NCBI GenBank assembly: GCA_023151185.1
Contig: JAKLJL010000008.1
Span: 79,508 to 143,507, forward strand
DNA length: 64,000 nt
Direction: 5' to 3'
Origin: Bacteroidota bacterium
Lineage (GTDB): Bacteria; Bacteroidota; JABWAT01
Shown: positions 11,201 through 60,105 of the stretch, one piece after another
How positions within the stretch are numbered: position 1 is the stretch's first letter
Layout: each line of letters begins with the position of its first letter
The notes under the pieces: generated by a model
The model's input: the letters and a program-made list of their open reading frames with translations, nothing else
Database searches by the model: none
What the model was told of the DNA's origin: nothing
Translations under genes and position numbers: made by a program

Positions 11201-11365
11201 TCCGCAAAACCAACTGCCGGTGAACTATCCTCGGGCCTGGGGCTTTACATTGCCAAAGAACTGACAGAACGGCACACCGGTAAAATCTGGGCCGAATCTG
11301 AACCCGGTAAAGGGGCAGCCTTCTTCCTGCAACTCCCCAAAACCCAGCCACCGGCTTCCTGCTGA
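8258..11365 (+). CDS. Reg_prop beta-propeller sensor histidine kinase
   Basis: A 1035-residue membrane sensor. A signal peptide (MGRFLIFLLAFHAVQAMAQ) leads into a long periplasmic region of Reg_prop repeats recognisable by blades such as GLIWIGTDAGLARFDG (about residues 20-630), a Y_Y_Y immunoglobulin-like domain (about 640-720) and one membrane helix at about 729-750. The cytoplasmic part has a short coiled coil, a HisKA domain with the phosphorylated His817 (ASHELRNP) and a HATPase domain (DQGPGLT, SSGLGLYIAKEL). It has no receiver or DNA-binding domain, unlike hybrid systems of Bacteroides, so it needs a separate partner; no response regulator is encoded in this window. The propeller probably senses an extracellular sugar or other ligand, but the ligand cannot be read from sequence. 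Confidence 0.92.
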   Translation: MGRFLIFLLAFHAVQAMAQPLGKVTYTVSDNLPGNFTKTVIQDQDGLIWIGTDAGLARFDGIQMVPVTRDLPSLLIKYLLLQPDGSLLVLTDRGLSRISRRGYSWITELVIGGSETATDSTLHFPKTMYLDRKGTLWLGESDAIVSWDGKQLTRYPQDKKFHNDSFIRSFAFFEDDSGHLWAASWGGFLLVFHPETKRFREIPTGIDEPVHRFYSVVQIQPGRFWLGTKFGTFELLAREGSVKQIRRISDLKGINSFYRDEDGTVFAGTLAMGVYKTVISDHDPVFTKISQAGEAAVNQIRKDREGKWWVCTDEGVQLLYPQFFSLYFGSDKNLIFRSVSSGSSRSVLITEFKNLYRVRNGRLDLPPEKIQLPKDKDLYDAAELGDTLWVSFRDGELIRKTGSATVTLLPVNENRRLGLLLAARNGVLWGRDENGKKVFRIDPDGGIQSFGTSEGILSSVNGIRELSDGSVWLAGSGQKTSLYRWDESTQAFSNISPALKTDFQGVLEVYDLEKGPDGVLYLATNDGLYRVTGQTAEKWYPDQKDRQMVVRTLRMTDRGWMLAGTEKGLSVFTGSEWIEFAGFSGETNSPMIMHGLIPMDSGRVFIVTPRHLIAGRLPVAFPETLPPLVTALSVNGTDNPEDIFAGSSIEIRFQAPVFPSEPVNYQYQIAGHHGNWVQLGTQNTIHLSGLEEGIHRVEFRAQKAGAAWSKSRVSDLKVVTPFYLTNWAKLVYLLFLTAGFWITVQQITAIRTKKLQKRQQDLEFLVSVRTHELEEEKKKTEAAYRDLKEKELLLETSLHELTAANQLKTDLIGMASHELRNPLQAVLGNIELLRKTTLPEKEASRLEKISQAASRMLTLVSHLLDSARVESGQYALRFSHPDFAELIRLVIQAASDQTERKNQTISLILPPGDYTLEADENALREITENLLSNSIKYSPAGSEISVELSGNSETIQVVFRDQGPGLTAADLDQLFLRFRKLSAKPTAGELSSGLGLYIAKELTERHTGKIWAESEPGKGAAFFLQLPKTQPPASC

Positions 11366-38643: not shown

Positions 38644-38815
38644 CCCGGTTTTGACCCGTCAAAGATCACAAATTTAACCCTTGTTTTCCGACTTGCATTC
38701 CACTGGCTTTTTTCCTCCTGATTTTTCGTGTACCTTATCCCGATTAATTATTGACCCGGCCGGGACGGATTTCTCCGGCTCCCGGCTGCCGGTTTCATCT
38801 TTTCGCAATTTTCTC

Positions 38816-41800
38816 ATGGCTGCACGAACTCTCCTTTCTGCCCTGATGCTGCTGACCGCCTGGTCACTTCCGGCACAGGAATACACCTTGAACTTCGAAC
38901 GGATTTCGACCAAAGAAGGTCTGCCCCATACCACGGTTTACAGCCTGCTTCAGGATCAGACCGGTTTTATGTGGATCGGAACCGAAAACGGACTTGTCCG
39001 GTATGACGGGCTGAATCTGAAAGTCTGGATTTCGGATCCTGAAAACCAGGACGGTCTTGCCGGATCCAATATTTCCTCAATTGCCCTGGACGGCAACGGA
39101 AATTTGGTTTTGGGATTGTGGGGCGAAGGACTGAATATTTTTAATCCGAAAACCGAAAAATTTACCCGGTACTCACAGGATCCTGCCGACCCGACCTCAC
39201 TGAATGATAACCGGGCCCAGGTGGTCTTTGTGGATTCAAAAGACCGGATCTGGATCGGGACTTACCGGGGCGGACTGAACCGGTTTTTGCCCGATCAGAA
39301 AAAATTCCTGAGCTATATGACACTACCCGGGCAGCACAACAGCATCAGTTCCAACCGGATCTGGGCCATCGGGGAATCTGCAGACGGGATGCTCTGGCTG
39401 GGAACGGATGAGGGATTGAACCGGTTTGATCCGGAAAACGGAACCTTCAGCCAACCGGAACTGCCGAAGGGACCCGCCGGAAAAAGTCTTCAGGTCAGGG
39501 CTGTTTATCCCGAAAAAACCGGACAGATCTGGCTGGGAACCGATAACGGACTGATGCTTTACAATCCGGCCACAGGTGAAACCAAAGTCTGGCTGGCGGG
39601 AACCGGGCGGTCTTCTTCAACCGAAAATGTCATTAACCGGATTCTTGAAGATGCTTCGGGAAATCTCTGGATTGCCACTTATGAACGGGGACTGATCCGG
39701 TTTATCCCCCAGAAAAATAAATTTGTGCCTTACCTTGCCGATCCGGCCAATCCGAATGCTCTGGCATCCAATGACATCCGGTGTTTATATCAGGACCGGT
39801 CGGGTACCATCTGGACCGGCGGCCGTGGGGGCTCACTGGCCCGGTTTAACCTGATTGCCCGCAAATTCAATTACATCAGCACCAATCCCAACAATTCCAA
39901 CTCCCTTACCGATAATAACGTCACCACCATTTCCCAAAGCGCAGACGGTCATCTCTGGATGGGAACCAACGGCTACGGCGTGAATGAATACAACCCGGAT
40001 AAAGATCTTTACACCCATTTTTCCGCAGAGAAATCCGGAATCGGCAGTAATTTCATCCAGACCCTGTACCCTACCGACGAAACCGTCTGGATCGGGACCC
40101 GCAATGGCGGACTGAGCAAACTGGACCGCCGGACCGGGAAGTCCCGGGTTGTCGGCGGGAAACCGGGAGAACCGGTCCCTTTTACCAACAATACCATCCG
40201 GGCAATTCTGCCGGATAAACCCGGATTCCTCTGGGTTGGGACCAAAACTTCCGGACTTCACCTCATGGATATCCGGAAAGAAACCTTCCGGTCATTCCGG
40301 TCGCAGGCAACCATTCCCGGCAGTATTTCGGGAACCGACATCCGGTGTCTGTACCGCACCCGTAACGGTGTTCTGTATATCGGGACGGATGGTGGCGGAC
40401 TGAACCGGTTTAACCCGATGGATTCCACCTTTTCTTCCTGGAAATCCATTCCCGGAAATACCGAAACCCTGACCAATAATGATGTTGTTTGCCTCTGGGA
40501 AGACTCTACCGGCTTTCTCTGGGTCGGAACTGATGGCGGCGGACTGAACCGGTTTGATCCGGTCAGGGAAACCTTTGAAAATATGTCAAGGAAAATCCCG
40601 CTTGCAAGTGCCATTATTTACGGACTTCAGGGGGATGATTCCGGAAATCTCTGGATTCAGACCATCAACGGACTTTCACGGGTTGATCTGAAAACCCTGG
40701 CGGTCAGAAACTATCTGGCCAACGACGGCCTTCAGAGTTCCATGTTCAACCAGAACAGTTGCTATAAGGCGGCCTCGGGTGAGTTGTTTTTTGGCGGAAT
40801 CAACGGAATCACGTCTCTTTTTCCGGGCCAGATCCGGGATAATGCCTTCATTCCGGCCATTACTCTCACCTCTTTCGAGGTGTTCAATAAACCCCTGCAG
40901 ACTGATACCGCCGTTGCCTTTCTTAAAGTCATCACCCTCGATCATACCCAGAATTTCTTTTCCTTCCAGTTTGCCGCCCTCGATTTTGTCAATCCGGAAA
41001 ACAACCAGTTCAGATACAAGCTGGAAGGATTTGACGAAGACTGGATTGACTGCGGAACCCGGAAATTTGCCAGTTACACCAATCTGGACGGCGGTGAGTA
41101 CACCCTTCGGGTTGTCGGGTCGAACAATGACGGACTTTGGAATGAAACCGGCATCAGTGTTAAACTGATCGTGCTGCCACCCTTCTGGCAAACCTGGTGG
41201 TTCCGGCTTATTCTGCTTGCCCTTCTGGCCGGCGGTGTCTGGCTGGCCATCCGGATCAGAACCCGGCTGGTCAGAAATCATAACCGGTTGCTTGAACGGG
41301 AAATCGAAGAACGCACCCGGGAACTGCAGGAAAAGAACCAGACTCTGGAAATTACCCTGACCAACCTGAAAACAGCCCAGACTCATCTGTTTCAGCAGGA
41401 AAAAATGGCCTCTCTCGGAACTTTGGTTGCCGGCGTTGCACACGAAATCAACAATCCGGTTAATTTCATCCATACATCCATCCATCCGCTGAACCGTGAT
41501 TTTTCTGAACTGACCAAAACCCTGCACGAACTGCTTGAACTGCACAATGAACTGATCTATCTGAGGGCAAACGGAACGGCTGCTGACCTGGGCACTGTCA
41601 TCGACAAACTTGGCAACGAAGACCGGATCAGTCACATCCAGGAACTGGAGAATGAAATTGCCATTCTGCTGAAAGGTATTGAAACCGGTTCTACCCGGAC
41701 GGCTGAAATTGTAAAAAGTCTGAGAACCTTTACCCGTCTGGATGAGAATACCTGGAAGCTGTTCAATCTTCATGACGGACTTGACAGTACCATTCAGATT

Positions 41801-42241
41801 CTGACACCGAAATGGAAAAACCAGGTTACCATTCACCGGAATTACGGAGACTTACCCGAAGTGGAATGCTATCCGGGTCAGATCAATCAGGTTTTCATGA
41901 ACCTGCTGGTCAATGCTTTTGATGCGCTTGATTCTGGTGGCGAAGTGACCATTTCGAGCCGGCTTACCGGCGGAAAGGCCGAGATCAGAATCCGGGATAC
42001 CGGATGCGGGATCAGCAAAGAGGCCCAATCCCGGATTTTTGAGCCATTTTTCACCACCAAACCGGTGGGGAAAGGAACCGGGCTCGGGCTGGCGATTTCC
42101 TACAGTGTTATCAGCCGTCATAACGGCGAAATCCGGGTTAGCTCTGAACCCGGAAAGGGAACAGAATTTACCATCCTGCTGCCGGTTATCCAGACCACAG
42201 ACACGAAACCCGGATCCGAAGAAGAAAAGAGCCCCGCCTGA
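38816..42241 (+). CDS. Reg_prop beta-propeller sensor histidine kinase, second
   Basis: A 1141-residue membrane sensor from the ATG at 38816, which begins the signal MAARTLLSALMLLTAWSLPAQ; the frame stays open further upstream but that part is not signal-like. Periplasmic Reg_prop blades (GFMWIGTENGLVRYDG, DRIWIGTYRGGLNRF and many more) fill residues 25-700, then a Y_Y_Y domain (about 715-785), one helix at about 794-815, a coiled coil, a kinase dimerisation domain with His876 (AGVAHEINNPVNF) and a HATPase (RIFEPFFTTKPVGKGTGLGLAIS). There is no receiver domain. The ligand is unknown; a terminator overlaps the last codons. Confidence 0.9.
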   Translation: MAARTLLSALMLLTAWSLPAQEYTLNFERISTKEGLPHTTVYSLLQDQTGFMWIGTENGLVRYDGLNLKVWISDPENQDGLAGSNISSIALDGNGNLVLGLWGEGLNIFNPKTEKFTRYSQDPADPTSLNDNRAQVVFVDSKDRIWIGTYRGGLNRFLPDQKKFLSYMTLPGQHNSISSNRIWAIGESADGMLWLGTDEGLNRFDPENGTFSQPELPKGPAGKSLQVRAVYPEKTGQIWLGTDNGLMLYNPATGETKVWLAGTGRSSSTENVINRILEDASGNLWIATYERGLIRFIPQKNKFVPYLADPANPNALASNDIRCLYQDRSGTIWTGGRGGSLARFNLIARKFNYISTNPNNSNSLTDNNVTTISQSADGHLWMGTNGYGVNEYNPDKDLYTHFSAEKSGIGSNFIQTLYPTDETVWIGTRNGGLSKLDRRTGKSRVVGGKPGEPVPFTNNTIRAILPDKPGFLWVGTKTSGLHLMDIRKETFRSFRSQATIPGSISGTDIRCLYRTRNGVLYIGTDGGGLNRFNPMDSTFSSWKSIPGNTETLTNNDVVCLWEDSTGFLWVGTDGGGLNRFDPVRETFENMSRKIPLASAIIYGLQGDDSGNLWIQTINGLSRVDLKTLAVRNYLANDGLQSSMFNQNSCYKAASGELFFGGINGITSLFPGQIRDNAFIPAITLTSFEVFNKPLQTDTAVAFLKVITLDHTQNFFSFQFAALDFVNPENNQFRYKLEGFDEDWIDCGTRKFASYTNLDGGEYTLRVVGSNNDGLWNETGISVKLIVLPPFWQTWWFRLILLALLAGGVWLAIRIRTRLVRNHNRLLEREIEERTRELQEKNQTLEITLTNLKTAQTHLFQQEKMASLGTLVAGVAHEINNPVNFIHTSIHPLNRDFSELTKTLHELLELHNELIYLRANGTAADLGTVIDKLGNEDRISHIQELENEIAILLKGIETGSTRTAEIVKSLRTFTRLDENTWKLFNLHDGLDSTIQILTPKWKNQVTIHRNYGDLPEVECYPGQINQVFMNLLVNAFDALDSGGEVTISSRLTGGKAEIRIRDTGCGISKEAQSRIFEPFFTTKPVGKGTGLGLAISYSVISRHNGEIRVSSEPGKGTEFTILLPVIQTTDTKPGSEEEKSPA

Positions 42242-48692: not shown

Positions 48693-49196
48693 ATGAAACC
48701 CTCTTTACTCATGTCCCTGATCCTGACTGCAGCCGGACTTCTTTCCTGCCGGACTGCGCAGGAAAAAGCAGTCATACCGCCCCAGCATTACCCCCACGGC
48801 CGGTTTACCTATCAGCAATTTGCCGACTCGGCCGGCTGGAAACTCTGGATCAATACCGGATATGAAATCAACCCTGCAGATCTGGAAATCCTCAGGCGTG
48901 AACTGCCGGTGATGACGTTCCGGATTTATGCCGGAACCTGGTGCGGAGATTCCAAACATCAGATCCCCGATTTCTTTCACATCCTTGATGAAGCCGGTGT
49001 GCCGAAAGAAGATGCCGGCTATATCCTTTTGAACCGGGACCGGAAGGCCTGGAACGATCTTGCCGGCGCCGATTCCATCAAACGGGTTCCCACCTTTATC
49101 GTTCTCAAAAACGGTATTGAAATCGGCCGGATCACTGAAACCCCCAAATCCCGCCTTGAAACCGACCTGGTTGAAATCGTAACCCAGGCCAGGTAA
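48693..49196 (+). CDS. Thioredoxin-fold lipoprotein
   Basis: A 167-residue lipoprotein (lipobox GLLSC) with a thioredoxin-like domain. The active-site region is GTWCGDSK, a single cysteine in place of CxxC, and the cis-proline loop VPTFIVLKNGIEIGRI is intact. It begins 16 bp after nadK. A monothiol or an adaptor role is more likely than disulfide reductase activity; partners are unknown. Confidence 0.88.
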   Translation: MKPSLLMSLILTAAGLLSCRTAQEKAVIPPQHYPHGRFTYQQFADSAGWKLWINTGYEINPADLEILRRELPVMTFRIYAGTWCGDSKHQIPDFFHILDEAGVPKEDAGYILLNRDRKAWNDLAGADSIKRVPTFIVLKNGIEIGRITETPKSRLETDLVEIVTQAR

Positions 49197-49239
49197 AGTT
49201 AATTCACAACTTTCTGGTACTGAATTTGTTTTATATATA

Positions 49240-49262
49240 CGGATATCCATATATTCGGATAT
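49240..49262. promoter_or_regulatory. Probable ArsR operator overlapping the arsR start
   Basis: ATATCC (49243-49248) and GGATAT (49257-49262) form an inverted repeat with 8 bases between, within an AT-rich run (TATATAC) directly before the ATG at 49263. The unit CGGATAT also recurs directly. The position fits autorepression by ArsR. Confidence 0.6.
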
Positions 49263-49610
49263 ATGAAAACACTCTCTCATTTTTTTAAAGCGCTTTCGGA
49301 TGAAACCCGGCTGAGGATCCTTCATCTGCTGATCCAGTCCGGGGAAATCTGTGTCTGTGATCTGGAGGCAGTTTTAAAGCTGTCACAACCGAAAATATCA
49401 CGGCACCTGGCCTACCTGAGGCTTTCAGGATTGGTTTCCGCCAGAAAAAAAGGGCAGTGGGTGTACTACCGGATCTCTCCTGATCTTCCCGAAAGTCAGA
49501 ACTCATTTCTGATCCAGATTCAGTCCCTTTCGGCAACCGATCCTGTTCTGAAGGGTGATTCAGCAGCACTCCGGGGAGTTTACTGCACGGATACCTGTAC
49601 CACAATCTGA
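49263..49610 (+). CDS. arsR: ArsR-family arsenic-responsive repressor
   Basis: A 115-residue winged-helix repressor. Helix 3 holds the As(III)-binding pair CVCDLE, the recognition helix is QPKISRHLAYLRLSG, and KKGQWVYYRI is the wing. Two further cysteines lie in the C-terminal tail (YCTDTC), which may add metalloid ligands. It heads the operon arsR-acr3-arsC-arsM; acr3 begins 7 bp after its stop. Confidence 0.93.
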   Translation: MKTLSHFFKALSDETRLRILHLLIQSGEICVCDLEAVLKLSQPKISRHLAYLRLSGLVSARKKGQWVYYRISPDLPESQNSFLIQIQSLSATDPVLKGDSAALRGVYCTDTCTTI

Positions 49611-49617
49611 AGGTTTT

Positions 49618-50697
49618 ATGTCTGCACTTACTGAGAAAATGTCCTTTTTTGAACGGAATCTGACCTGGTGGGTGTTTGGCTGCATGGTAGCCGGAGTTGC
49701 CCTGGGATACGGATTCCCGCAGGTAACCGCTGCTGTGCGGGATCTGGAACTGGCCGGTGGGTCTCAGATCAACCTGCCGGTGATGGTCCTGATCTGGCTT
49801 ATGATTTACCCGATGATGCTTAAAATTGATTTCACTTCAGTAAAAAATGCCGGCAGAAAGCCCACCGGGCTGTTGATAACCCTTGCCGTTAACTGGATTG
49901 TTAAGCCCTTCAGCATGGCCTTTCTTGGCTGGCTTTTTTTTAAATGGGCTTTTTCGGGATGGATTCCGGAAAATCTGGCCAATGAGTTTCTTGCCGGGGT
50001 GATCATTCTTGCAGCGGCCCCCTGCACAGCTATGGTCTTCGTCTGGAGCCAGTTAACCGGCGGGGATCCGGCTTATACCCTGATTCAGGTCAGTATTAAC
50101 GATTTGATCATGCTGTTTGCCTTTGCCCCGATTATTTCCTTTCTGGTTGCCGGGGCAGCCGGTATCCAGATTCCGTTCGAAATTTTGCTGTATTCGGTGA
50201 TCGCCTTTATTGTTATTCCGCTGGCGGCAGGAAGTAGTACAAGGTGGATTCTGGTCAGAACCCGTGGACTCGACTGGTTTGAAAACCGCTTTCTGAGCCA
50301 GTTCGGCCCCGTCACCATAACAGCTCTCCTGCTAACCCTGGTCATTATTTTTGCCTTTCAGGCTGAAAATATGATCGAAAACTGGTTTTATGTTGTTCTG
50401 ATTTCCATTCCGATTCTGATCCAGGTCTATTTCAATTCCTCACTGACCTATCTGCTGATGCGGTTTTTCAGGGTGGAGTACACCATTGCTGCACCGGGAG
50501 CCATGATCGGAGCCTCCAATTTTTTTGAACTGGCGGTAGCAACTGCCATTGTTCTGTTCGGACCCGGAAGCGGTGCTGCACTGGCTACGGTAGTGGGAGT
50601 ATTGGTTGAAGTCCCGGTCATGCTTTCTGTTTGCCAGGCCTGCAATTCAACCCGGCATTGGTTTTCTGCTTCCGGGACACAGCACCAGCCATCCTGA
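49618..50697 (+). CDS. acr3: Acr3 arsenite efflux transporter
   Basis: A 359-residue membrane protein with about ten helices. The Acr3 motif AAPCTAMVFVWSQL, with its conserved cysteine, is present in mid-protein. It expels arsenite produced by ArsC. The ATG at 49618 is chosen over the earlier frame at 49555, which overlaps arsR. Downstream arsC begins 30 bp later. Confidence 0.95.
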   Translation: MSALTEKMSFFERNLTWWVFGCMVAGVALGYGFPQVTAAVRDLELAGGSQINLPVMVLIWLMIYPMMLKIDFTSVKNAGRKPTGLLITLAVNWIVKPFSMAFLGWLFFKWAFSGWIPENLANEFLAGVIILAAAPCTAMVFVWSQLTGGDPAYTLIQVSINDLIMLFAFAPIISFLVAGAAGIQIPFEILLYSVIAFIVIPLAAGSSTRWILVRTRGLDWFENRFLSQFGPVTITALLLTLVIIFAFQAENMIENWFYVVLISIPILIQVYFNSSLTYLLMRFFRVEYTIAAPGAMIGASNFFELAVATAIVLFGPGSGAALATVVGVLVEVPVMLSVCQACNSTRHWFSASGTQHQPS

Positions 50698-50727
50698 ATT
50701 TTATTACTGCAAAAAGAGAGACTTCAA

Positions 50728-51150
50728 ATGAAAAAGAAAATCCTGATTTTATGTACCGGCAACTCCTGCCGCAGTCAGATGGCCCACGGTTATCTGCAGT
50801 CGTTTGACTCTGATCTGGATGTTCACTCCGCCGGCACACAGGCCTCAGGGAAGTTAAATCCGGGAGCTGTTCAGGTGATGAGGGAAGACGGTATTGATAT
50901 CAGCCACCATACATCCGATTCGGTAGACAAATATCTGAACGAAGAGTGGGATTATGTCATTACCGTTTGCGGGGGTGCCAATGAATCCTGCCCGGCCTTT
51001 TATGGAAAGGTGAAAAACCGCCTGCACATCGGGTTCGACGATCCGTCGCATGCAGTGGGAACGGAAGCCTTTATAAAAAGTGAATTCGTCCGGGTCCGGG
51101 ATGAAATCCGTGCCGGATTCTGGAAATTTTACACCGAAAATTTAAAATAA
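50728..51150 (+). CDS. arsC: Arsenate reductase, thioredoxin-coupled
   Basis: A 140-residue low-molecular-weight phosphatase-like arsenate reductase. The P-loop CTGNSCRS holds the nucleophile Cys10, and the two resolving cysteines are in VCGGANESCP. It reduces arsenate to arsenite, and Acr3 exports it. The start has AGAGAG before it. Confidence 0.95.
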   Translation: MKKKILILCTGNSCRSQMAHGYLQSFDSDLDVHSAGTQASGKLNPGAVQVMREDGIDISHHTSDSVDKYLNEEWDYVITVCGGANESCPAFYGKVKNRLHIGFDDPSHAVGTEAFIKSEFVRVRDEIRAGFWKFYTENLK

Positions 51151-51163
51151 TCAGGAGTGGTGG

Positions 51164-51970
51164 ATGACTTCAGAACAGCTCAAACAGACCGTTCGGGACC
51201 ATTACGGCGAAATTGCCGCTTCAACCGGCAGGCAGGAATCCTGCTGCGGACCGACTTCCTGCTGCAACCCGGTTGCAGAAATTACCTTCAATGATCCCTA
51301 TACCGGTCTGGAAGGCTATGTTCCGGATGCCGATCTGGCCCTGGGGTGCGGAATCCCGACAGAATTCGCCGGTATTAAAACCGGGGATACCGTTCTGGAT
51401 CTGGGCAGCGGTGCAGGAAACGATGCCTTTGTCGCCCGGTCTTTAACCGGTGAAACAGGCAGGGTTCTGGGAGTTGATTTTACCCCGGCCATGATTGAAA
51501 GGGCCGTTGTAAATGCCGGAAAACTGGGTTTCAGCAATGTTGAATTCAGACTAGGGGATATTGAAAATCTGCCGGTGGAGGATGGATCCGCAGATGTTGT
51601 CATCAGCAACTGCGTTCTGAATCTCGTTCCGGACAAAGTAAAGGCATTCAGTGAAATTTACCGGGTCCTGAAACCGGGTGGTCATCTTTCTGTGTCGGAT
51701 GTGGTAATGGAAGGTAATTTACCCGATTCCCTGAAAAAAGCAGCAGAACTGTATGCGGGATGTGTCTCGGGTGCTCTTGAAAAAACCGATTATCTGGGAG
51801 TTATCCGGGCTGCAGGACTGACCTCTGTCCAAATCCGGAAGGAAAAACCCCTTCATCTCCCGGCCTCCTTTCTGGCAGACTACAGCTCACCGGCAGAAGC
51901 TGAAACCTTCAGGCACTCCGGTGGCCGCCTGCTGAGTATCACCGTTTATGCCGAAAAACCGGCAGTCTGA
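51164..51970 (+). CDS. arsM: Arsenite S-adenosylmethionine methyltransferase
   Basis: A 268-residue methyltransferase. The SAM motif is LDLGSGAGND, and the arsenic-binding cysteines are in ESCCGPTSCCNP, SNCVLNL and YAGCVSGAL. It methylates arsenite to less retained or volatile forms. Last gene of the operon, 13 bp after arsC. Confidence 0.94.
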   Translation: MTSEQLKQTVRDHYGEIAASTGRQESCCGPTSCCNPVAEITFNDPYTGLEGYVPDADLALGCGIPTEFAGIKTGDTVLDLGSGAGNDAFVARSLTGETGRVLGVDFTPAMIERAVVNAGKLGFSNVEFRLGDIENLPVEDGSADVVISNCVLNLVPDKVKAFSEIYRVLKPGGHLSVSDVVMEGNLPDSLKKAAELYAGCVSGALEKTDYLGVIRAAGLTSVQIRKEKPLHLPASFLADYSSPAEAETFRHSGGRLLSITVYAEKPAV

Positions 51971-52009: not shown

Positions 52010-55000
52010 TCAGTCCTCTTTTCTGGCTTCAGTGAAGTATTTTGAAATTGCTTCCAGATCATGACTGGTTTTTGAGATGGACTGGATGGACTGAACCAGG
52101 TGGTTCGACGTATCCGCAATTTCTCTGAGACTGGTTACCATCTGACTGTTGGCTATGGTCTGCTGGGCGGTCGACTTCGAAATACTGGTTGCTGAAGTGG
52201 TCACTTCATTCTGCGACTGGTTCATTTCCCCGATTGAAACCGACATTTCTCTGGTCAGGGAAACACTTTCCAGAACTGCGGACTGGGATTCCCGGCTGAC
52301 TTTAACGGCCGAGTCCATTTCGTCGATCATATCGCTGATGGTCTGTTTGATTTCCCGGGTTGACTGATTGATTTCGTGCGACAGATTCCGGATTTCATCT
52401 GCAATGACACTGAACCGTCGGCCGATTTCACCGGCCAGAGTGGCTTCGATGGCGGCATTGAAGGCGATAAGCTGGGTCTGGTCGTTGACGTTTTCAATGA
52501 ACAGGGAGACTTTTTTAATATTTTCCGCTTTTTCTGCCAGACTTTGAATCCGGTGGACCTGCTCCTCGGTGACTGACCGGATCTTATCCATCTGGGAAAT
52601 ATTCTGTCCGGCCAGGTGGGTAACATTTTCGAGAACCCGCTGGTTATTCAGAGCCAGATGACTGACTTTCATTGCAGAGTCTTCGATGAATTTATTGCTT
52701 TGTGCCAGTTCTTCCATCGTGGCGGTGGTTTCGGCAATGGAACTGGATTGCTGGACGGTTGCAGCCGTCATTGAGGAGATATTTTCGTTCAGGTTCAGGG
52801 ATCCCGAGTAAATCTGTTTGCCTTTGGCATCCATTTCCTGCAGCAGACGGGCCAGGTCGGCATCTTTTTTCAGAATTGCATCTGTCCGCTCAGAAATTGT
52901 CCGTTCCAGTTCGGCATTTTTTTCCTGAAGGGCCCGGGCCCGCCATCCGAAAAAGAGATAGATTCCACCCGATACTGACAGAATGTAGACCAAAATCATC
53001 CACCAGGAATAATACCAGTGGGTTTCAACCCCGAATTTCACTGTCAGTTCAGGGCCCCAGTTGCCAATTTCCTTCGAGGCTCTGACCTGAAATTCATACT
53101 CCCCGCTCCGGCTTATGTTGACCGGGACGATCCGGTTGGTGGTGGGCTCTGACCAGTCTTCACTGAGCCCGAGAATCCGGGTCTGGTAATACAGATCGTT
53201 GGCCGGATAGTCAATTCCATAAAATTCAAACGTAACTGCACGGGTCGAGGCATCCAGATTTCTGAAGTCACCCGTCTTAAATTCTTCATCGCCCGTGCGC
53301 CAGGAATACAGTCTGACTTCCGGTTTTGAATAGGTCATATCCCCGCCGATGGTATAACTGGCGCAGAGGTTTGTTCCCATCCACAGGCGGTTTTTTGAAT
53401 CCACGAAAGAGGATCTGTTTGAAAAACTGGTGGATTCAAGTCCGTTTCTTTTCTTGAAGACCCGGCTGCCGGCCGGATTGCCGTCTGCATCCAGAGAAAT
53501 CAGGAATAAAAACCGGTTGGTTCCAACCCAGACTTCCTTGTCGCCTGCAGAGATAAAGCGGATATTATTCAGTGGGGCTGATGGATCAGACGGAACTTTT
53601 ACCAGAGATTTTCCCGGTTCAAAAATGAACAGTCCCGAACTGGTTCCCAGCCAGATACGGCCACGGCCACCGGCAACTATTTCATCAATCCGGTCCAGGC
53701 TGTCAGGCTGAACCGCATAGGCAGACCAGTCCGTCTCTTTCAGCCGGTTGGTTTCCGGGTCGAAAGTAAACAGTTTCCGGTTATCTCCGCCGACATAAAG
53801 GATTCCGCCGGGACCCTCTGCTGCCGTGTAGACACTGGAAGAAAGTCCCTGTCCCGGACCCAAAATTGTCACCTCAGAAGTTCCGGGAGAGATCAGGGCA
53901 AGTTCATTCAAAGCTGGCAGCCAGATTTTACCGGTTTTGTCGATAAAGAGGTGCTCGGGCTGGCTGGTAAAAGGGAAGTGGATCAGTTTTGACAGGTTCA
54001 GATCAGTCAGGGAAAGGGCATATAAATCGGTCCCGGTCACCACAACGATCCGGTTGTTTTTTTCATCAGGGGCCATGGTTCTGACAAACAGATCGCCGTC
54101 GTTCAGTTTTCTTACTTTTTCCCCTTCCTTCTCCTGCATGAAAAGCCCCTCATAGGTAGAAAAGAAGGCCCGGCCTTTGGCATCCACAATCACTTTTGAA
54201 ATGTACCGGTTCGGCAGCCCGTTACGGGTGGTTACATTTTTAAAAATGGTATGGGGTTTCAGATAAACGCCGTCATCACAGGCAATCCAGACATTTTTCT
54301 GACGGTCCGTTTTGACATCTTTGATGTAGGGAGATTTTAAAACATCCGGCTGGCGTGACGTATTCGATTTTAAGTTATAGATCAGATTCCCGTAGCCATC
54401 GGTTGCAACCAGAAAGGAACCATCATCGAGAGGCGTGATCCGGTTTGCCATTTTGACGGATTTGGTGAGGGATTTCACCGTTGAGGACAATGGAGAGGCC
54501 AGGTTTACCGTTAGTTCATACAATCCGTCATTAGCACCGATCAGAAACCGGTTTTCCTGAAGCGGAAGAACCGTCCGGATGGAGTTATCCAGACCTGGAG
54601 CCGTAAGCCGGGTGAAGGATTTCTGGTCGCCGGAAAGGTACCAGAGACCCTGTCCCAGAGTCGTAATCCAGATTCCGCCGTTTTTATCTTCTGCAAACTC
54701 AAAAGACCGGACGAAATCGACAGAAAATGAAGTTCCGGCCGGGAAACCGAATTTCTGGACTGAACTTCCGTCAATCAGGTAGAAAAAATCATCCGAAGAC
54801 ACCCAGATCCGGCCGCGGGAGTCTTCAAAAAGTGCCAGAACGCGAAGTTCCTTTCGGGTCTGGTCGAGAAGGAACGGCTTAAAACCGTCATTGAGGCTGG
54901 TCCCTGCAGCATAGTTCAGGCCGCCGTTGGTCCCGACCCAGAGTTTCCCTCCGGAATCCAGAAAAACCACTTTAACATATTGACTCAGCAGTCCGTCGGT

Positions 55001-55210
55001 TTGGGAGAAGGTGGTAAAGGTATAGCCATTGAACAGCGACAGACCATTGTCGGTGGCGATAAGCATTTCACCGGTCGGGAGCTGAAGAAGCTGTTTGGTG
55101 AAACTGGACGGAAGGCCGTCTTCAAGGGAATACTGGTAGAGTAAATCTGACTGAGCAGAGGAAATAAAAGACATCAGGCAGAACAGGAGAGAAAAAACGA
55201 AGCGTTTCAT
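52010..55210 (-). CDS. Reg_prop beta-propeller sensor fused to an MCP signalling domain
   Basis: A 1066-residue membrane receptor from the ATG at 55210, which follows GGAGGTGTC and opens the signal MKRFVFSLLFCLMSFISSAQ. Periplasmic Reg_prop blades fill about residues 25-640, a Y_Y_Y domain about 650-725, a membrane helix about 733-755 and then a coiled coil. The C-terminal ~220 residues are a methyl-accepting chemotaxis signalling domain, with the hairpin tip FNAAIEATLAGEIGRRFSVIADEIRNL (about residues 917-943). In this family Reg_prop propellers are normally joined to histidine kinases; the MCP output would signal to CheA. No che genes are in the window. Confidence 0.9.
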   Translation of the reverse strand: MKRFVFSLLFCLMSFISSAQSDLLYQYSLEDGLPSSFTKQLLQLPTGEMLIATDNGLSLFNGYTFTTFSQTDGLLSQYVKVVFLDSGGKLWVGTNGGLNYAAGTSLNDGFKPFLLDQTRKELRVLALFEDSRGRIWVSSDDFFYLIDGSSVQKFGFPAGTSFSVDFVRSFEFAEDKNGGIWITTLGQGLWYLSGDQKSFTRLTAPGLDNSIRTVLPLQENRFLIGANDGLYELTVNLASPLSSTVKSLTKSVKMANRITPLDDGSFLVATDGYGNLIYNLKSNTSRQPDVLKSPYIKDVKTDRQKNVWIACDDGVYLKPHTIFKNVTTRNGLPNRYISKVIVDAKGRAFFSTYEGLFMQEKEGEKVRKLNDGDLFVRTMAPDEKNNRIVVVTGTDLYALSLTDLNLSKLIHFPFTSQPEHLFIDKTGKIWLPALNELALISPGTSEVTILGPGQGLSSSVYTAAEGPGGILYVGGDNRKLFTFDPETNRLKETDWSAYAVQPDSLDRIDEIVAGGRGRIWLGTSSGLFIFEPGKSLVKVPSDPSAPLNNIRFISAGDKEVWVGTNRFLFLISLDADGNPAGSRVFKKRNGLESTSFSNRSSFVDSKNRLWMGTNLCASYTIGGDMTYSKPEVRLYSWRTGDEEFKTGDFRNLDASTRAVTFEFYGIDYPANDLYYQTRILGLSEDWSEPTTNRIVPVNISRSGEYEFQVRASKEIGNWGPELTVKFGVETHWYYSWWMILVYILSVSGGIYLFFGWRARALQEKNAELERTISERTDAILKKDADLARLLQEMDAKGKQIYSGSLNLNENISSMTAATVQQSSSIAETTATMEELAQSNKFIEDSAMKVSHLALNNQRVLENVTHLAGQNISQMDKIRSVTEEQVHRIQSLAEKAENIKKVSLFIENVNDQTQLIAFNAAIEATLAGEIGRRFSVIADEIRNLSHEINQSTREIKQTISDMIDEMDSAVKVSRESQSAVLESVSLTREMSVSIGEMNQSQNEVTTSATSISKSTAQQTIANSQMVTSLREIADTSNHLVQSIQSISKTSHDLEAISKYFTEARKED

Positions 55211-55331
55211 GACACCTCCGGCGTGTTGAGGTAAATGTAATGAATTCTGAGGCACCTAATCAATGCTTTTCAGAATCAGGCGAGTGTATTTTAATTGCGA
55301 TTAACAGCCAGCCGGAAATCCGGCAGTTTGA

Positions 55332-56945
55332 TCAGAACACTTCCCGGATAATCACCGGCAGATTGTCCTGCCAGAGGTGATCGAACTGAAAGGTTTTAAG
55401 ATCTGCTTTTTTGCTTTCCAAAAGGGTTTTTGTTGCAGAAAAATCAGGTTCCTGCTGCCCGCCCCGTTGCTGGAAAAGTGTAAACTGCAGTTTTTCCAGA
55501 ATGTAGGTGGGCATCATGTTCAGGAAATAGGCGGGGTATTTATCCGTCCAGTAGTCGGGGTTTCCGCCGTCAACATGTTTTGCCCGGAGTGATTGGGTGA
55601 GGCGGCCGTTGACACTGGCAGCAGACGAAAACAGGGTCGGGTACTTGAGCAGGTAGTAGAAGGCAGCAAGTCCTCCCTGTCCGAAACCCAGTAACCGGCG
55701 GTTTTCCCGGTTGGGAAGGGTTCTGAGAACCAGATCATAATTCGGGCCCACGTCACCGGTAAAGAAAGATTCAAAATCCCAGCCCTTTTCCTTATCTGCC
55801 GAGGTCATAAAGGCAGAGGGACCGCCATCCATGATGATGACAATCGATGGGTCGGCCAGTTTCTTTTCTATAGCTTCATCCATCATTTCATTGAAGCGGT
55901 ACGCAACAAAATCGGCCGGTTTATCGGTCACATCGGGGAAAACGTAGGTTACGGGATACCGTTTGGTCGTGTTGAAGTAACCGGGCGGCAGGTAAATGTA
56001 GAATTCCCGGTCGGCTCTCATACTTTTTGCCGAAAGAACGGCGGGATAAAACCGTTTTTTATTTCCGGTTTCCTTCCAGATTCCGCCGTTCAGTTCGAAA
56101 TACCGGGTTTCATCACCGGCATCGACCAGCGAATCTCCCTTCCACATATTATACTGGTACATCATCATAACCCGGCCGTCCTTCAGGTCACTGAACAGGA
56201 AATTGCCGTAGTCGAACCGCATTCCCTCCATTCTGGGTGCGATAAACTTGTAAAAATTCATTTTATCAGCTTTGCTGATGCCGTCTTCGAAATAGGTGCC
56301 CGAAATAAAGGAAGAAAAATCCCCGGTTTTTCCCTGAATCAGGAGGGAATCCATTCTCTGCATGGTCCTTACAATCCGGGTATACCGTTCATCCCGGATC
56401 TGGTTTTCTGCACTTCCCGATTTAAATGGCAGCATCCGCTGATCGGGCAGGGTTTCCTTTCCGGGAGGGGCCGGGTTCCGGATGGCGATAAACCGGAGGG
56501 CCGGGTTGTCTTTCAGAAGTTTTTTAAAGGCAATCCAGAGTACTTTTCTGGACGGATCCCAATCCAGTTTGCCGGTCCAGTTTACCTGAACCGGACCGGT
56601 GCTGACCGAGACAGCCGCCGAGTCATGAGTTTCAATCATCAGATCATCGAACCGGAGGTGACTGGCCAGAGACTCAGCCGAAACCGACCAGGAAATCCGT
56701 TGCCAGGGAATTTGCGGAAGGCTGGAGCCGATCCGGAGAGAATCCGGCTTGCCCGAAAAATACACATCCCAGGCAGAATCCGGGAAGGACGGATCAGAAA
56801 AAGCAGATGAATCCCGGTAGGAAAAAGTCCACCTCAGATGATCAGGAGGCGGGGCAGAGTCCGGCCCGGAAGGTTCCTTTTCGGAACAGGAAAAAAACGA
56901 AGCAGCGAGGAAGCATGCAGCGGTTTTCAGAAACGGATTCAGCAC
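55332..56945 (-). CDS. Esterase-D-like lipoprotein lacking the nucleophile serine
   Basis: A 537-residue lipoprotein (lipobox FFSC) starting at a GTG at 56945 that overlaps the end of punA by 7 bp. The C-terminal half (about 300-537) has the alpha/beta-hydrolase plan of esterase D/enterochelin-esterase proteins (FYIYLPPGYFNTTKRYPVTYVFPD), but the nucleophile elbow reads GFGQGG (residues 420-425), with Gly422 where Ser is expected; the late His523 (DHLWQ) remains. The N-terminal half is unknown and beta-rich. It may be a binding protein rather than an enzyme. Last gene of the nucleoside-salvage operon. Confidence 0.82.
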   Translation of the reverse strand: MLNPFLKTAACFLAASFFSCSEKEPSGPDSAPPPDHLRWTFSYRDSSAFSDPSFPDSAWDVYFSGKPDSLRIGSSLPQIPWQRISWSVSAESLASHLRFDDLMIETHDSAAVSVSTGPVQVNWTGKLDWDPSRKVLWIAFKKLLKDNPALRFIAIRNPAPPGKETLPDQRMLPFKSGSAENQIRDERYTRIVRTMQRMDSLLIQGKTGDFSSFISGTYFEDGISKADKMNFYKFIAPRMEGMRFDYGNFLFSDLKDGRVMMMYQYNMWKGDSLVDAGDETRYFELNGGIWKETGNKKRFYPAVLSAKSMRADREFYIYLPPGYFNTTKRYPVTYVFPDVTDKPADFVAYRFNEMMDEAIEKKLADPSIVIIMDGGPSAFMTSADKEKGWDFESFFTGDVGPNYDLVLRTLPNRENRRLLGFGQGGLAAFYYLLKYPTLFSSAASVNGRLTQSLRAKHVDGGNPDYWTDKYPAYFLNMMPTYILEKLQFTLFQQRGGQQEPDFSATKTLLESKKADLKTFQFDHLWQDNLPVIIREVF

Positions 56946-57760
56946 TTTTGGAGAATTCCTTTGATCAGATCAGTAAATTTCTTTTGAACGAGTTTTCCGG
57001 TTTCGGTCACCTCGTCGTGTGACAGCTTTTGTCCGGTAATTCCCGCTGCCATATTGGTAATGCAGGAAATTCCCAGAACCTGGATACCCAGATGGGCTGC
57101 CTGGATAACTTCAGGTACCGTCGACATCCCGACGGCATCAGCACCCAGCAACCGGAACATTTCAATTTCGGCCGGAGTTTCGTAACTCGGCCCGGTCAGA
57201 CCCAGATAAACACCGGTCTGTACCCCGATTTTCAGGTCAAGGGCCACCGTTGCAGCCAGTGCTCTGAGGTCTTTGGAGTAAGCATCACTCATATCGGGGA
57301 ACCGGGGGCCGAAGTCATCCGGGTTTTTCCCGATCAGCGGGTTGCGGAACATGAAATTGATGTGATCCGAAATCAGCATCAGATCGCCGACTTTAAATTG
57401 TTTGTTCAGCCCGCCGGCGGCATTGGTCAGAATAACCTTCCGGATTCCCAGATGCTTCATGAGCCAGATGGGAAGGGCCGTCAGCCGGATGTCATGTCCT
57501 TCATAAAAGTGGATCCGTCCCTGAAAGGCGAGAACGGGAACACCGTTGCTTTTTCCGAAAATGACTTTACCGGAATGCCCGATGACCGAGGTAACCGGGT
57601 AACCATCCAGTTCAGAAGTCGGGATGACGGTTTTTTCGGTGAGTCCGTCGGCAAAATCACCGAGGCCTGAGCCCAGAATGATACCGGTTGTGACAGGAAA
57701 TGGCTGCCGTTTTTTGATCTGTTCCGCAATGGAGGCTGAAAGGTGGGCCAAATCGGTCAT
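56939..57760 (-). CDS. punA: Purine nucleoside phosphorylase
   Basis: A 273-residue enzyme of the trimeric PNP family, which splits inosine/guanosine with phosphate. GSGLG at the start, VIGHSGKVIFG, FQGRIHFYEGH, TNAAGGLN and the late VGMSTVPEV and SCITNMAAGI are the family signature. The ATG at 57760 overlaps the nupC stop (ATGA); the longer frame to 57919 runs back into nupC and is rejected. The final cysteine codon overlaps the lipoprotein start. Confidence 0.95.
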   Translation of the reverse strand: MTDLAHLSASIAEQIKKRQPFPVTTGIILGSGLGDFADGLTEKTVIPTSELDGYPVTSVIGHSGKVIFGKSNGVPVLAFQGRIHFYEGHDIRLTALPIWLMKHLGIRKVILTNAAGGLNKQFKVGDLMLISDHINFMFRNPLIGKNPDDFGPRFPDMSDAYSKDLRALAATVALDLKIGVQTGVYLGLTGPSYETPAEIEMFRLLGADAVGMSTVPEVIQAAHLGIQVLGISCITNMAAGITGQKLSHDEVTETGKLVQKKFTDLIKGILQKC

Positions 57761-59106
57761 ATCAGAACTCCGGCAATGGTTGCAGTCATCAGCGTGGCCA
57801 GGGTACCGCCCAGAACGGCACGGATTCCCAGTGTTGCCAGGTCTCCCTGACGTTCCGGGGCCAGTGGTCCGATTCCGCCGATCTGGATGGCGATAGATGA
57901 TATATTGGCAAACCCGCAAAGGGCAAAGGTGGCCATGATGACAGTTTTTTCACTCAGGGCGCCTGCCTTGACCAAATCTGCAAGATTCAGATAGGCAACG
58001 AATTCATTCAGAACGAGTTTGGAGCCGATCAGAGACCCAAAATGAAGCGCATCAGACCAGGGAACTCCGATACCGGCAGCCAGAAACTGAAGAATCAGCC
58101 CAAGAATCAGTTCCAGTTTCAGCGGTGAATTGAAATTGGCCATGAGAATTGGGTTCAGGCCGGTTATATCCCCAACCCACCCGAACAGCGAGTTGACGAG
58201 GGCAATCAGGGCAATAAAGGCCAGGAGCATAGCCCCGACATTCAGCGCCAGTTTCAGACCTTCGCCGGCGCCCGAAGCAGCAGCTTCAATGACGTTGGTA
58301 GCGGTTTTTTCGACATGGATTTTAACATGGCCCCGGGTTTCTGGATTTCCGTTTTCGGGCATCAGGATTTTGGCAATCATCAAAGCTGCCGGTGCTGCCA
58401 TTATGGAAGCTCCCAGCAACTGGCTGGCAAACAAAATCTGGGCATCGGTGATGGGGATTCCTTTTGCCTGGGCAAATGAGAAGCCGAGCATCTGAACATA
58501 GGCAGCCATTACCCCGCCGGCAATCGTCGCCATTCCGCCGATCATGACTGCAAGCAGCTCAGACTGGGTCATTTTTTTGATAAACGGTTTGATGACCAGA
58601 GGAGCCTCAGTTTGACCCACAAAAATATTGGCCGAGACCGACAGGGTTTCTGCTCCGGAGGTTTTCAGGGATTTGGCAATTACCCAGGCAACAACCTGTA
58701 CAACCTTCTGCATAACCCCGAGGTGGTAAAGAACACTCATGATGGAAGCGAAGAAAATGATGGTTGGCAAAACCTGAAAGGCAAAGAAGAAGCCAAGCGA
58801 ATCAGTAAAACCCGGGCTGACAGCCAGATTGCCGAAAACAAACTTAGCACCGTCTGTTGTAAAGCTGAGGAGTTTCACAAATCCGGCTGAAATGCCCTCA
58901 AAGGCCATTTTCGGCCATTCCAGCGGGGCAAAGTACGTGCCGAGCAGACTTCCCTTGATGATGAAGAAGCCAAAAACGACCTGCATGGTGATGGCTATCC
59001 CCACCAGTTTCCAGTTGATGTCTTTCCGGGAAGCTGAAAACAGCCAGGCAATTCCGATGAGAAGGGCCAGTCCGAGAATGCCTCTGATCAGGCTGAAAAA
59101 ATCCAT
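57757..59106 (-). CDS. nupC: Concentrative nucleoside transporter
   Basis: A 449-residue inner-membrane nucleoside importer of the CNT family. Multiple helices and the substrate motif GQTEAPLVIKPF and GFANISSIAIQIGG are conserved. The ATG at 59106 begins with a helix (MDFFSLIRGILGLALLIGIAW); the frame extends further but into the tdk gene. It feeds the cdd, tdk and punA products from outside. Confidence 0.95.
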   Translation of the reverse strand: MDFFSLIRGILGLALLIGIAWLFSASRKDINWKLVGIAITMQVVFGFFIIKGSLLGTYFAPLEWPKMAFEGISAGFVKLLSFTTDGAKFVFGNLAVSPGFTDSLGFFFAFQVLPTIIFFASIMSVLYHLGVMQKVVQVVAWVIAKSLKTSGAETLSVSANIFVGQTEAPLVIKPFIKKMTQSELLAVMIGGMATIAGGVMAAYVQMLGFSFAQAKGIPITDAQILFASQLLGASIMAAPAALMIAKILMPENGNPETRGHVKIHVEKTATNVIEAAASGAGEGLKLALNVGAMLLAFIALIALVNSLFGWVGDITGLNPILMANFNSPLKLELILGLILQFLAAGIGVPWSDALHFGSLIGSKLVLNEFVAYLNLADLVKAGALSEKTVIMATFALCGFANISSIAIQIGGIGPLAPERQGDLATLGIRAVLGGTLATLMTATIAGVLI

Positions 59107-59125
59107 AAGTTCAGGTCTTTCTGAT

Positions 59126-59707
59126 TTATTTGGGTTGGTCTTTGGGCGGTGAGAAACAATGTCTGCACCGGGGTTCATACGTATCCTGTGCACCAAGCTG
59201 AATCCGGGAGTCGGAGGCAGAAAGCCGTTGGGATCTGAGAGCCGGAGCCCCGCAGACCACACAGATAGCCTGGGTCTTGGTAATATATTCAGCAACTGCC
59301 AGAAGCTGCGGGACCGGCTCAAAGGGAACACCTCTGAAATCCTGGTCAAGTCCGGCACAGATCACCCGTTTTCCCGAATTGGCCAGTTCTTCGACGACCG
59401 GCAGGACGTCCATGCCAAGAAACTGAACTTCATCAATCCCGACCACATCGGCATCCTGGGCAAGAAGAATAATTTCGTGTGCGCTTTCGACCAGTGTTGA
59501 GGGAATCTGCAGGTCAGAGTGGGAGACAATATGGGTAGAGGAATACCGGGTATCGATTCTGGGCTTAAAAATCTCGACTTTTTGCCGGGCAATCTGGGCT
59601 CTCCGCAGGCGGCGGATCAGTTCTTCAGTCTTTCCGCTGAACATACTACCGCAGATGACTTCAATCCAGCCCGACCGGGTATGATATCGGAAATGTCCTT
59701 CGGTCAT
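59126..59707 (-). CDS. tdk: Thymidine kinase
   Basis: A 193-residue type II thymidine kinase. Walker A is GSMFSGKTEEL, IDEVQFL is the Walker B/lasso region, and the zinc knuckle cysteines are CVVCGAP and CRHC. Its start overlaps the cdd stop by 4 bp (59704-59707), and the stop is 19 bp before nupC. Confidence 0.96.
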   Translation of the reverse strand: MTEGHFRYHTRSGWIEVICGSMFSGKTEELIRRLRRAQIARQKVEIFKPRIDTRYSSTHIVSHSDLQIPSTLVESAHEIILLAQDADVVGIDEVQFLGMDVLPVVEELANSGKRVICAGLDQDFRGVPFEPVPQLLAVAEYITKTQAICVVCGAPALRSQRLSASDSRIQLGAQDTYEPRCRHCFSPPKDQPK

Positions 59708-60105
59708 GGTTTCCTGAGATGAGAGGCGTTAAAGCTGAGGGGAAGCAGGTCACCCACGGTTACGGTTTTGAACGTCCCGTTCGAGTGGATCAGGTGGATT
59801 TTTAAATCGGATCCGCCCAGATCAAGAAGAACCTGCCGGCAGGCACCGCAGGGGTAGGTATATTCGGGTGCATCACCGCAAAGGTATAAATCGGTAAATT
59901 CCCGGTCTCCTTCAGAAACCGCTTTAAACATTGCCACCCGTTCAGCACAGCAGGTCAGGCTGTAAGAGCTGTTTTCAACATTGCAGCCCTGATAGGTTTT
60001 TCCGGATGCAGAAATCAGGACAGCACCTACCCGGAACCCGGAATAGGGGGCAAGTGCCCGGGCCTGAGCCTCCTTTGCCAGCTGAATATAATTGGCCGGT
60101 TTCAT
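59704..60105 (-). CDS. cdd: Cytidine deaminase
   Basis: A 133-residue tetrameric-type cytidine deaminase. The zinc site is CCAERVA plus PCGACRQV, and the proton-shuttling Glu is in the first motif. APYSGFRVGAVL is conserved near the start. It is the first gene of the nucleoside-salvage operon and is preceded by AAAGGA. Confidence 0.96.
   Translation of the reverse strand: MKPANYIQLAKEAQARALAPYSGFRVGAVLISASGKTYQGCNVENSSYSLTCCAERVAMFKAVSEGDREFTDLYLCGDAPEYTYPCGACRQVLLDLGGSDLKIHLIHSNGTFKTVTVGDLLPLSFNASHLRKP

Follow-up and report, generated by a model that had tools for sequence, protein, structure and literature searches.

A Reg_prop/Y_Y_Y sensor joined to an MCP output in a Bacteroidota family, and the chemosensory pathway it may serve

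The locus and its protein

The window analysed here, 64,000 nucleotides of contig JAKLJL010000008.1 from a Bacteroidota bacterium (GCA_023151185.1), carries a gene whose product begins like a Reg_prop sensor kinase and ends like a chemoreceptor (Table 1). A GTG start at 55255 is also possible and would give a protein of 1081 aa.

Table 1. Features of the Reg_prop-MCP gene and its upstream neighbours (positions in the window)
Feature	Position	Strand	Basis or remark
Terminator-like hairpin directly past the stop codon	51964..51982	-	Consensus match only
Reg_prop / Y_Y_Y / TM / MCP-signal gene	52010..55210	-	1066 aa; ATG common to its orthologs
MCP signalling domain, residues 878-1033	52112..52579	-	Pfam and PDB sequence search
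Hairpin tip with class motif NDQTQLIAFNAAIEATLAGEIGRRFSVIADEIRNL, residues 904-943	52382..52501	-	Ortholog and receptor tip comparison
Kinase-type juxtamembrane coiled coil, residues 758-800	52811..52939	-	WW-to-ERT spacing
Transmembrane helix, about residues 734-757	52940..53011	-	Hydropathy peak in all orthologs
Y_Y_Y domain, residues 670-726	53033..53203	-	Pfam
Periplasmic double beta-propeller sensor, residues 22-630	53321..55147	-	Pfam Reg_prop; AlphaFold and Foldseek
Signal peptide, residues 1-20 (MKRFVFSLLFCLMSFISSAQ)	55151..55210	-	Sequence; hydropathy peak at residue 1
Putative esterase (PF00756), lipoprotein-like signal by eye	55332..56945	-	Directly upstream in all four family genomes
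Purine-nucleoside phosphorylase	56939..57757	-	NCBIfam PRK08202, E 1.5e-110; order kept in all four
NupC-type nucleoside transporter	57757..59109	-	Order kept in all four
Thymidine kinase	59126..59707	-	In place in G001 and G002; an opposite-strand ORF covers the spot in the G003 list
Cytidine deaminase, first gene of the conserved block	59704..60105	-	Order kept in all four

Pfam matched Reg_prop (E 5.9e-25), Y_Y_Y (E 1.5e-7) and MCPsignal (E 2.9e-23, 83 bits against a cut-off of 34.6) in the 1066-aa protein, and the same scan gave no match to HAMP, HisKA or HATPase. In a PDB sequence search the N-terminal half resembled BT4663 (4a2l, E 7e-24), and residues 785-1058 resembled the MCP 2ch7 (E 1e-18). 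An AlphaFold model of the sensor (residues 22-735, with seven window and public relatives as input) reached a mean pLDDT of 84, and in Foldseek its top full-length PDB matches, with TM up to 0.70, were BT4663 and BT3049 (periplasmic domains), the BT4663 structure covering the model over its full length. All structural claims use this sensor model only; a whole-protein model from three sequences (pLDDT 51) was set aside. The hydropathy peak of the transmembrane helix lies at residue 738, and at 748 in the G003 ortholog, a longer protein. QQ or EE pairs are kept at residues 820-821, 833-834 and 1016-1017, plausible positions for candidate methylation sites.

The protein combines a Reg_prop/Y_Y_Y sensor with an MCP output and lacks kinase domains. 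An earlier note on this DNA had read the protein as having the periplasmic layout of these sensor kinases, with an MCP hairpin in place of HisKA/HATPase. Pfam, PDB and fold all agree with that reading, the MCP profile fitting the C-terminus far above its cut-off, and the hairpin, put by the note at about residues 917-943, is placed here at about 904-943. Like the sensor kinases and hybrids of the BT4663 and BT3049 type, the protein has the double-propeller plus Y_Y_Y fold over its full length and a single transmembrane helix. Unlike those systems, it has no HisKA, HATPase, REC or DNA-binding domain, and an MCP domain takes their place. Because the window sensor is only about 19% identical to theirs, the ligand of BT4663 and BT3049 is not transferable to it.

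The other three genomes in the GTDB family each carry an ortholog that is full length and unbroken (68, 68 and 55% identity). Constraint rises toward the output: the three orthologs agree with the window protein at 64/64/50% of propeller residues, 80/78/70% of those in the juxtamembrane linker and 95/95/85% of those in the hairpin (residues 896-960), the best conserved part. The window genome is a draft of 27 contigs, in which misassembly or a frameshift could have fused a Reg_prop kinase to an MCP. We give such an artefact almost no credence, as three further assemblies carry the intact gene, and an assembly chimera in particular is ruled out because two of these relatives are public Bacteroidetes MAGs (JAFLBE, JAIUNL) and the gene is full length in all four family genomes. 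Nor is the MCP assignment due to chance, given a MCPsignal score far over the cut-off and ortholog conservation that peaks at the hairpin. The Reg_prop-MCP protein is neither an artefact nor a chance product.

In all four genomes the gene is the last of a same-strand block of nucleoside-salvage genes and an esterase gene, and the genes beyond its 3′ side vary from genome to genome. The weight of this synteny is limited, since the four genomes are closely related. Sensing of a polymer or sugar, which the earlier note suggested, is not supported beyond an analogy with BT4663. The conserved neighbours offer a weak lead toward a nucleoside or an esterase product as the possible ligand. Window positions 48693-51970 hold an arsenic-resistance-like block, recognized by eye (ArsR-like, ACR3-like transporter, ArsC-like and ArsM-like methyltransferase genes). 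A tie to these adjacent genes was rejected, as they are convergent with the gene and are not kept beside it in the other genomes.

Kinase connector and other fusions

The linker that follows the transmembrane helix has the form ..LERTISERT.., the same juxtamembrane ERT coiled coil as in Reg_prop kinases. WW and ERT are spaced exactly as in the kinase encoded at 38681-42241 of the window and as in Reg_prop histidine kinases from other genomes, and the long Y_Y_Y-to-linker matches retrieved elsewhere were Reg_prop kinases. In profile comparisons of the Y_Y_Y-to-linker region, matches to Reg_prop kinases fade near residue 795, and matches to MCPs start at about residue 785-790, so that the junction lies within the coiled coil, at about 785-800. 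From this alignment of parts, the sensor and connector of a kinase would have been retained and the output swapped. The window encodes two Reg_prop-type sensor kinases besides the MCP fusion (8258-11365 and 38681-42241), with kinase C-termini that look ordinary by eye.

The architecture is not unique to this family. When a second fusion (P0002, from genome G065) served as query with its Y_Y_Y-to-MCP part, and the best five candidates per genome were considered, Reg_prop-Y_Y_Y-MCP proteins were found in at least six of 296 genomes outside the family, G065 included. Pfam confirmed eight such proteins from five of the six; the G005 fusion is represented by one query-spanning alignment in a 1235-aa frame. 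The genomes with these fusions include G065, G274, G282 and Rhodothermus genomes, among them R. marinus DSM 4252 (G009, part of whose second contig is a 100% match to NC_013502.1). Among other long MCP ORFs of the phylum (in G014, G159, G356, G368, G360, G242 and G279), the four scanned with Pfam have HAMP, PAS, 4HB or Cache sensors and no propeller, and the rest were judged by eye. A tblastn search of plasmids with P0002 gave no record spanning most of the query. The R. marinus DSM 4252 ORF (L094:4277-7516) starts inside the propeller and is shorter than its Rhodothermus relative (L100), possibly through a frameshift or a late start in the deposited genome.

These other fusions share the domain order of the window protein. 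They differ from it in their canonical tips, in belonging to a separate MCP lineage, the ones placed on trees grouping with canonical receptors, and, for several, in a weakly detected HAMP-like stretch. The Reg_prop-MCP architecture thus arose at least twice, given the canonical tips and separate lineage of the other fusions. The earlier note knew of no described MCP version of these sensors. Our searches of the open-access literature, subscription papers lying outside them, likewise found no description of a Reg_prop-MCP protein; any sense of a singular protein fell away once the phylum was searched.

Hairpin class and chemosensory clusters

The window genome encodes eight MCPs as well as CheA, CheW, CheR and CheB, and searches for CheW domains and CheA revealed three CheA-containing clusters: a ChpA-like one on contig C11, a small one at C24:84-92k, which within the family was found in the window genome alone, and an operon at C24:34-50k. 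The C24 operon runs CheW, a second CheW-like gene, MCP, MCP, CheB, a CheR-TPR fusion, Hpt, a CheA with three Hpt domains and a C-terminal REC, MCP, a 370-aa REC protein and a 723-aa REC-GAF-cyclase-like protein; CheB, Hpt and the second CheW-like gene were named by eye. The order is identical in the three relatives, which have two CheA genes each by these searches, one ChpA-like and one of the C24 type. There, with only two CheAs, the choice of a partner for the Reg_prop-MCP protein lies between the C24-type operon and the ChpA-like one.

As in canonical MCPs such as Tsr and the T. maritima receptor 2ch7, the window protein matches the MCPsignal profile, forms an antiparallel helical hairpin and keeps N/E/G/R landmarks at the tip. 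Unlike them, it has no HAMP, bears a giant propeller sensor and carries tip substitutions, which make its hairpin non-canonical (NDQTQLIAFNAAIEATLAGEIGRRF). The tip reads D-Q-T-Q-L-I-A-F-N-A-A-I-E-A-T-L-A-G-E-I-G-R-R-F, and that of two C24 operon receptors reads E-Q-T-K-L-I-[AS]-F-N-A-[AS]-L-E-A-S-G-A-G-E-A-G-K-R-F. In an IQ-TREE analysis, 16 rows (the four window-type proteins and 12 operon MCPs) were split from 27 others by a branch with support 100/100. The canonical rows still stood apart (100/99) in a second tree to which a Halomonas receptor of the cluster-2 type and an orphan receptor had been added. Both trees are unrooted, and the branch of the window-type orthologs is long (1.4-1.9), its place inside the hairpin class differing between the two. 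By BLAST, the window protein is 31-32% identical to the C24 receptors, 36% to the Halomonas receptor described below and about 25% to the other receptors of its genome. A degenerate DNA pattern for QT[KQ]LIAFNA occurred at 10 sites in 4 of 394 phylum genomes, every one in an operon receptor or a window-type gene, and a backward-pattern control gave 0. Judged by tips and trees, the window hairpin is shown to belong to the class of the C24 operon receptors of its own genome.

Two further tip types occur among the MCPs of this genome. An orphan MCP (L137:3309-5804, contig C11 at about 765-768 kb) has a strongly altered tip, NENLKLISFNAQLEAAGDRKQILRFQVVAEEVRDL, and is followed by a PhnD-like substrate-binding protein; orphan-type MCPs of similar score are present in all four genomes, and the pairing with a PhnD-like neighbour in the window genome and G003. 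An MCP on contig C20 (L135:5937-9817, about 222-226 kb) has a third type, KQTNLLAVNAAIESALAGQAGRGF; it also matches Tll0287 weakly and contains a Cys-x-x-Cys-His motif of the heme type. It adjoins CheW and REC genes, and no CheA was seen in the 14 kb read around it.

The tip of the window protein is strongly kept among its orthologs, yet it carries class-specific substitutions compared with canonical MCPs. In Tsr numbering, these include R388L (Leu925), L380F and G395R, and F373 is replaced by Asp. Since R388 has become Leu and F373 Asp, activation of CheA by the window protein is not certain. The protein might even fail to activate a CheA and instead be inert or regulatory, an MCP-like protein whose coiled coil serves for dimerisation or CheW sequestration. 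The lost tip arginine, the missing HAMP, the long branch and the position of the gene outside any che operon would all suit this. We nevertheless think it unlikely, because no stretch is more conserved than the hairpin (85-95%) and because most of the tip substitutions are common to the operon receptors and to a Halomonas receptor from a related cluster.

That Halomonas receptor, the nearest one found on a plasmid, belongs to the PA16-9 locus and has the tip AAQTKLIAFNAALEASSAGESGRRF. It shares with the C24 operon both the tip class and the gene order, which in PA16-9 is MCP-CheB-CheR-CheA(REC), CheB being named by eye. The locus resembles cluster 2 of Halomonas titanicae, which has been described as Wsp-like (PMC5907407). 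Fusions of CheR to TPR and multidomain response regulators are marks of pathways with alternative cellular functions (ACF) (PMC3447774). With its CheR-TPR, its CheA with REC, its same-class MCPs, CheB and multidomain response regulators, the C24 operon is best explained as an ACF-like, probably Wsp-like, pathway. Unlike Wsp of P. aeruginosa, it showed no match to GGDEF among the products scanned, and its last gene encodes instead the REC-GAF protein with an apparently degenerate cyclase-like end (L021:17605-19776, contig C24), kept in that place in the relatives as well. Also unlike Wsp-like systems, it has three receptors in the operon and, as we propose, an outlying one that bears a propeller sensor. 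We considered a cAMP output through the cyclase-like C-terminus but did not adopt it: the match does not reach the Pfam cut-off, and at the aligned positions the metal-binding aspartates that would be expected seem to be absent.

Pathway and meaning

The earlier note left open whether the protein would serve movement or a non-motility CheA pathway. The CheA and CheW clusters that it suggested looking for are present, and FlhA was absent from all four family genomes in a search with positive controls. Swimming chemotaxis was therefore rejected as the main reading, and the hairpin class of the C24 receptors, together with the failure to find FlhA, suggests that the protein feeds the C24 pathway rather than swimming. 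The non-motility half of the proposal is thus the better one.

Surface movement is a separate matter. The C11 cluster (L134:2473-12360, about 351-361 kb) encodes a ChpA-like CheA of 1793 aa, an MCP, CheR, a CheB-like protein, two CheW-like proteins and a small Ras/Arf-type GTPase resembling MglA, and each of the four genomes has one PilT-like ATPase. The window protein could signal to this ChpA/PilJ-like cluster and steer pilus- or MglA-type movement. We consider this improbable. The C11 receptor has a canonical tip, lies on the opposite side of the 100/100 branch and is only 25% identical to the window protein; the PilT-like protein is moreover the sole T2SSE-family ATPase above the cut-off in each genome, which falls short of establishing a complete type IV pilus.

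We favor, with reasonable but not full confidence, the view that the protein belongs to the C24 ACF-type pathway as an outlying chemoreceptor, one that carries a transplanted kinase sensor and has a non-motility output. That the window-type gene stands outside the C24 operon counts against this partnership. We infer the coupling to the C24 CheA from the hairpin class, on precedent from other bacteria, where class and gene context have served to assign receptors to pathways, a procedure that its authors call deductive (PMC11253619).

In the proposed mechanism, a periplasmic ligand would shift the Y_Y_Y domains of a receptor dimer. This movement would pass through one transmembrane helix and the coiled coil of Reg_prop kinases and, with no HAMP in between, reach the four-helix bundle of the MCP part. 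Through its special hairpin class, that bundle would join the CheA/CheW complex of the C24 operon, where the receptor would tune CheA autophosphorylation, in one direction or the other, and so control a non-motility response. More tentatively, and with doubts that outweigh our confidence, the whole kinase cassette of propellers, Y_Y_Y, transmembrane helix and coiled coil may have moved in register onto a non-motility array receptor. A signal of a kind that usually goes to a single kinase dimer, perhaps from nucleosides or an esterase product, would then reach a CheA array that is cooperative and adaptable, where it would be combined with the signals of the three operon receptors.

Reg_prop sensors are known mainly as inputs of histidine kinases, and our data suggest that they also feed chemosensory arrays. 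Within one phylum the sensor swap took place on at least two occasions, involving two distinct receptor classes. Since the kinase-type transmembrane helix and coiled-coil connector are kept at their exact spacing, the fusion offers a natural test of whether kinases and chemoreceptors share a conformational code. For this family, in which no gene for flagellar export was detected, it would also place a large periplasmic sensor at the head of a Wsp-like pathway.
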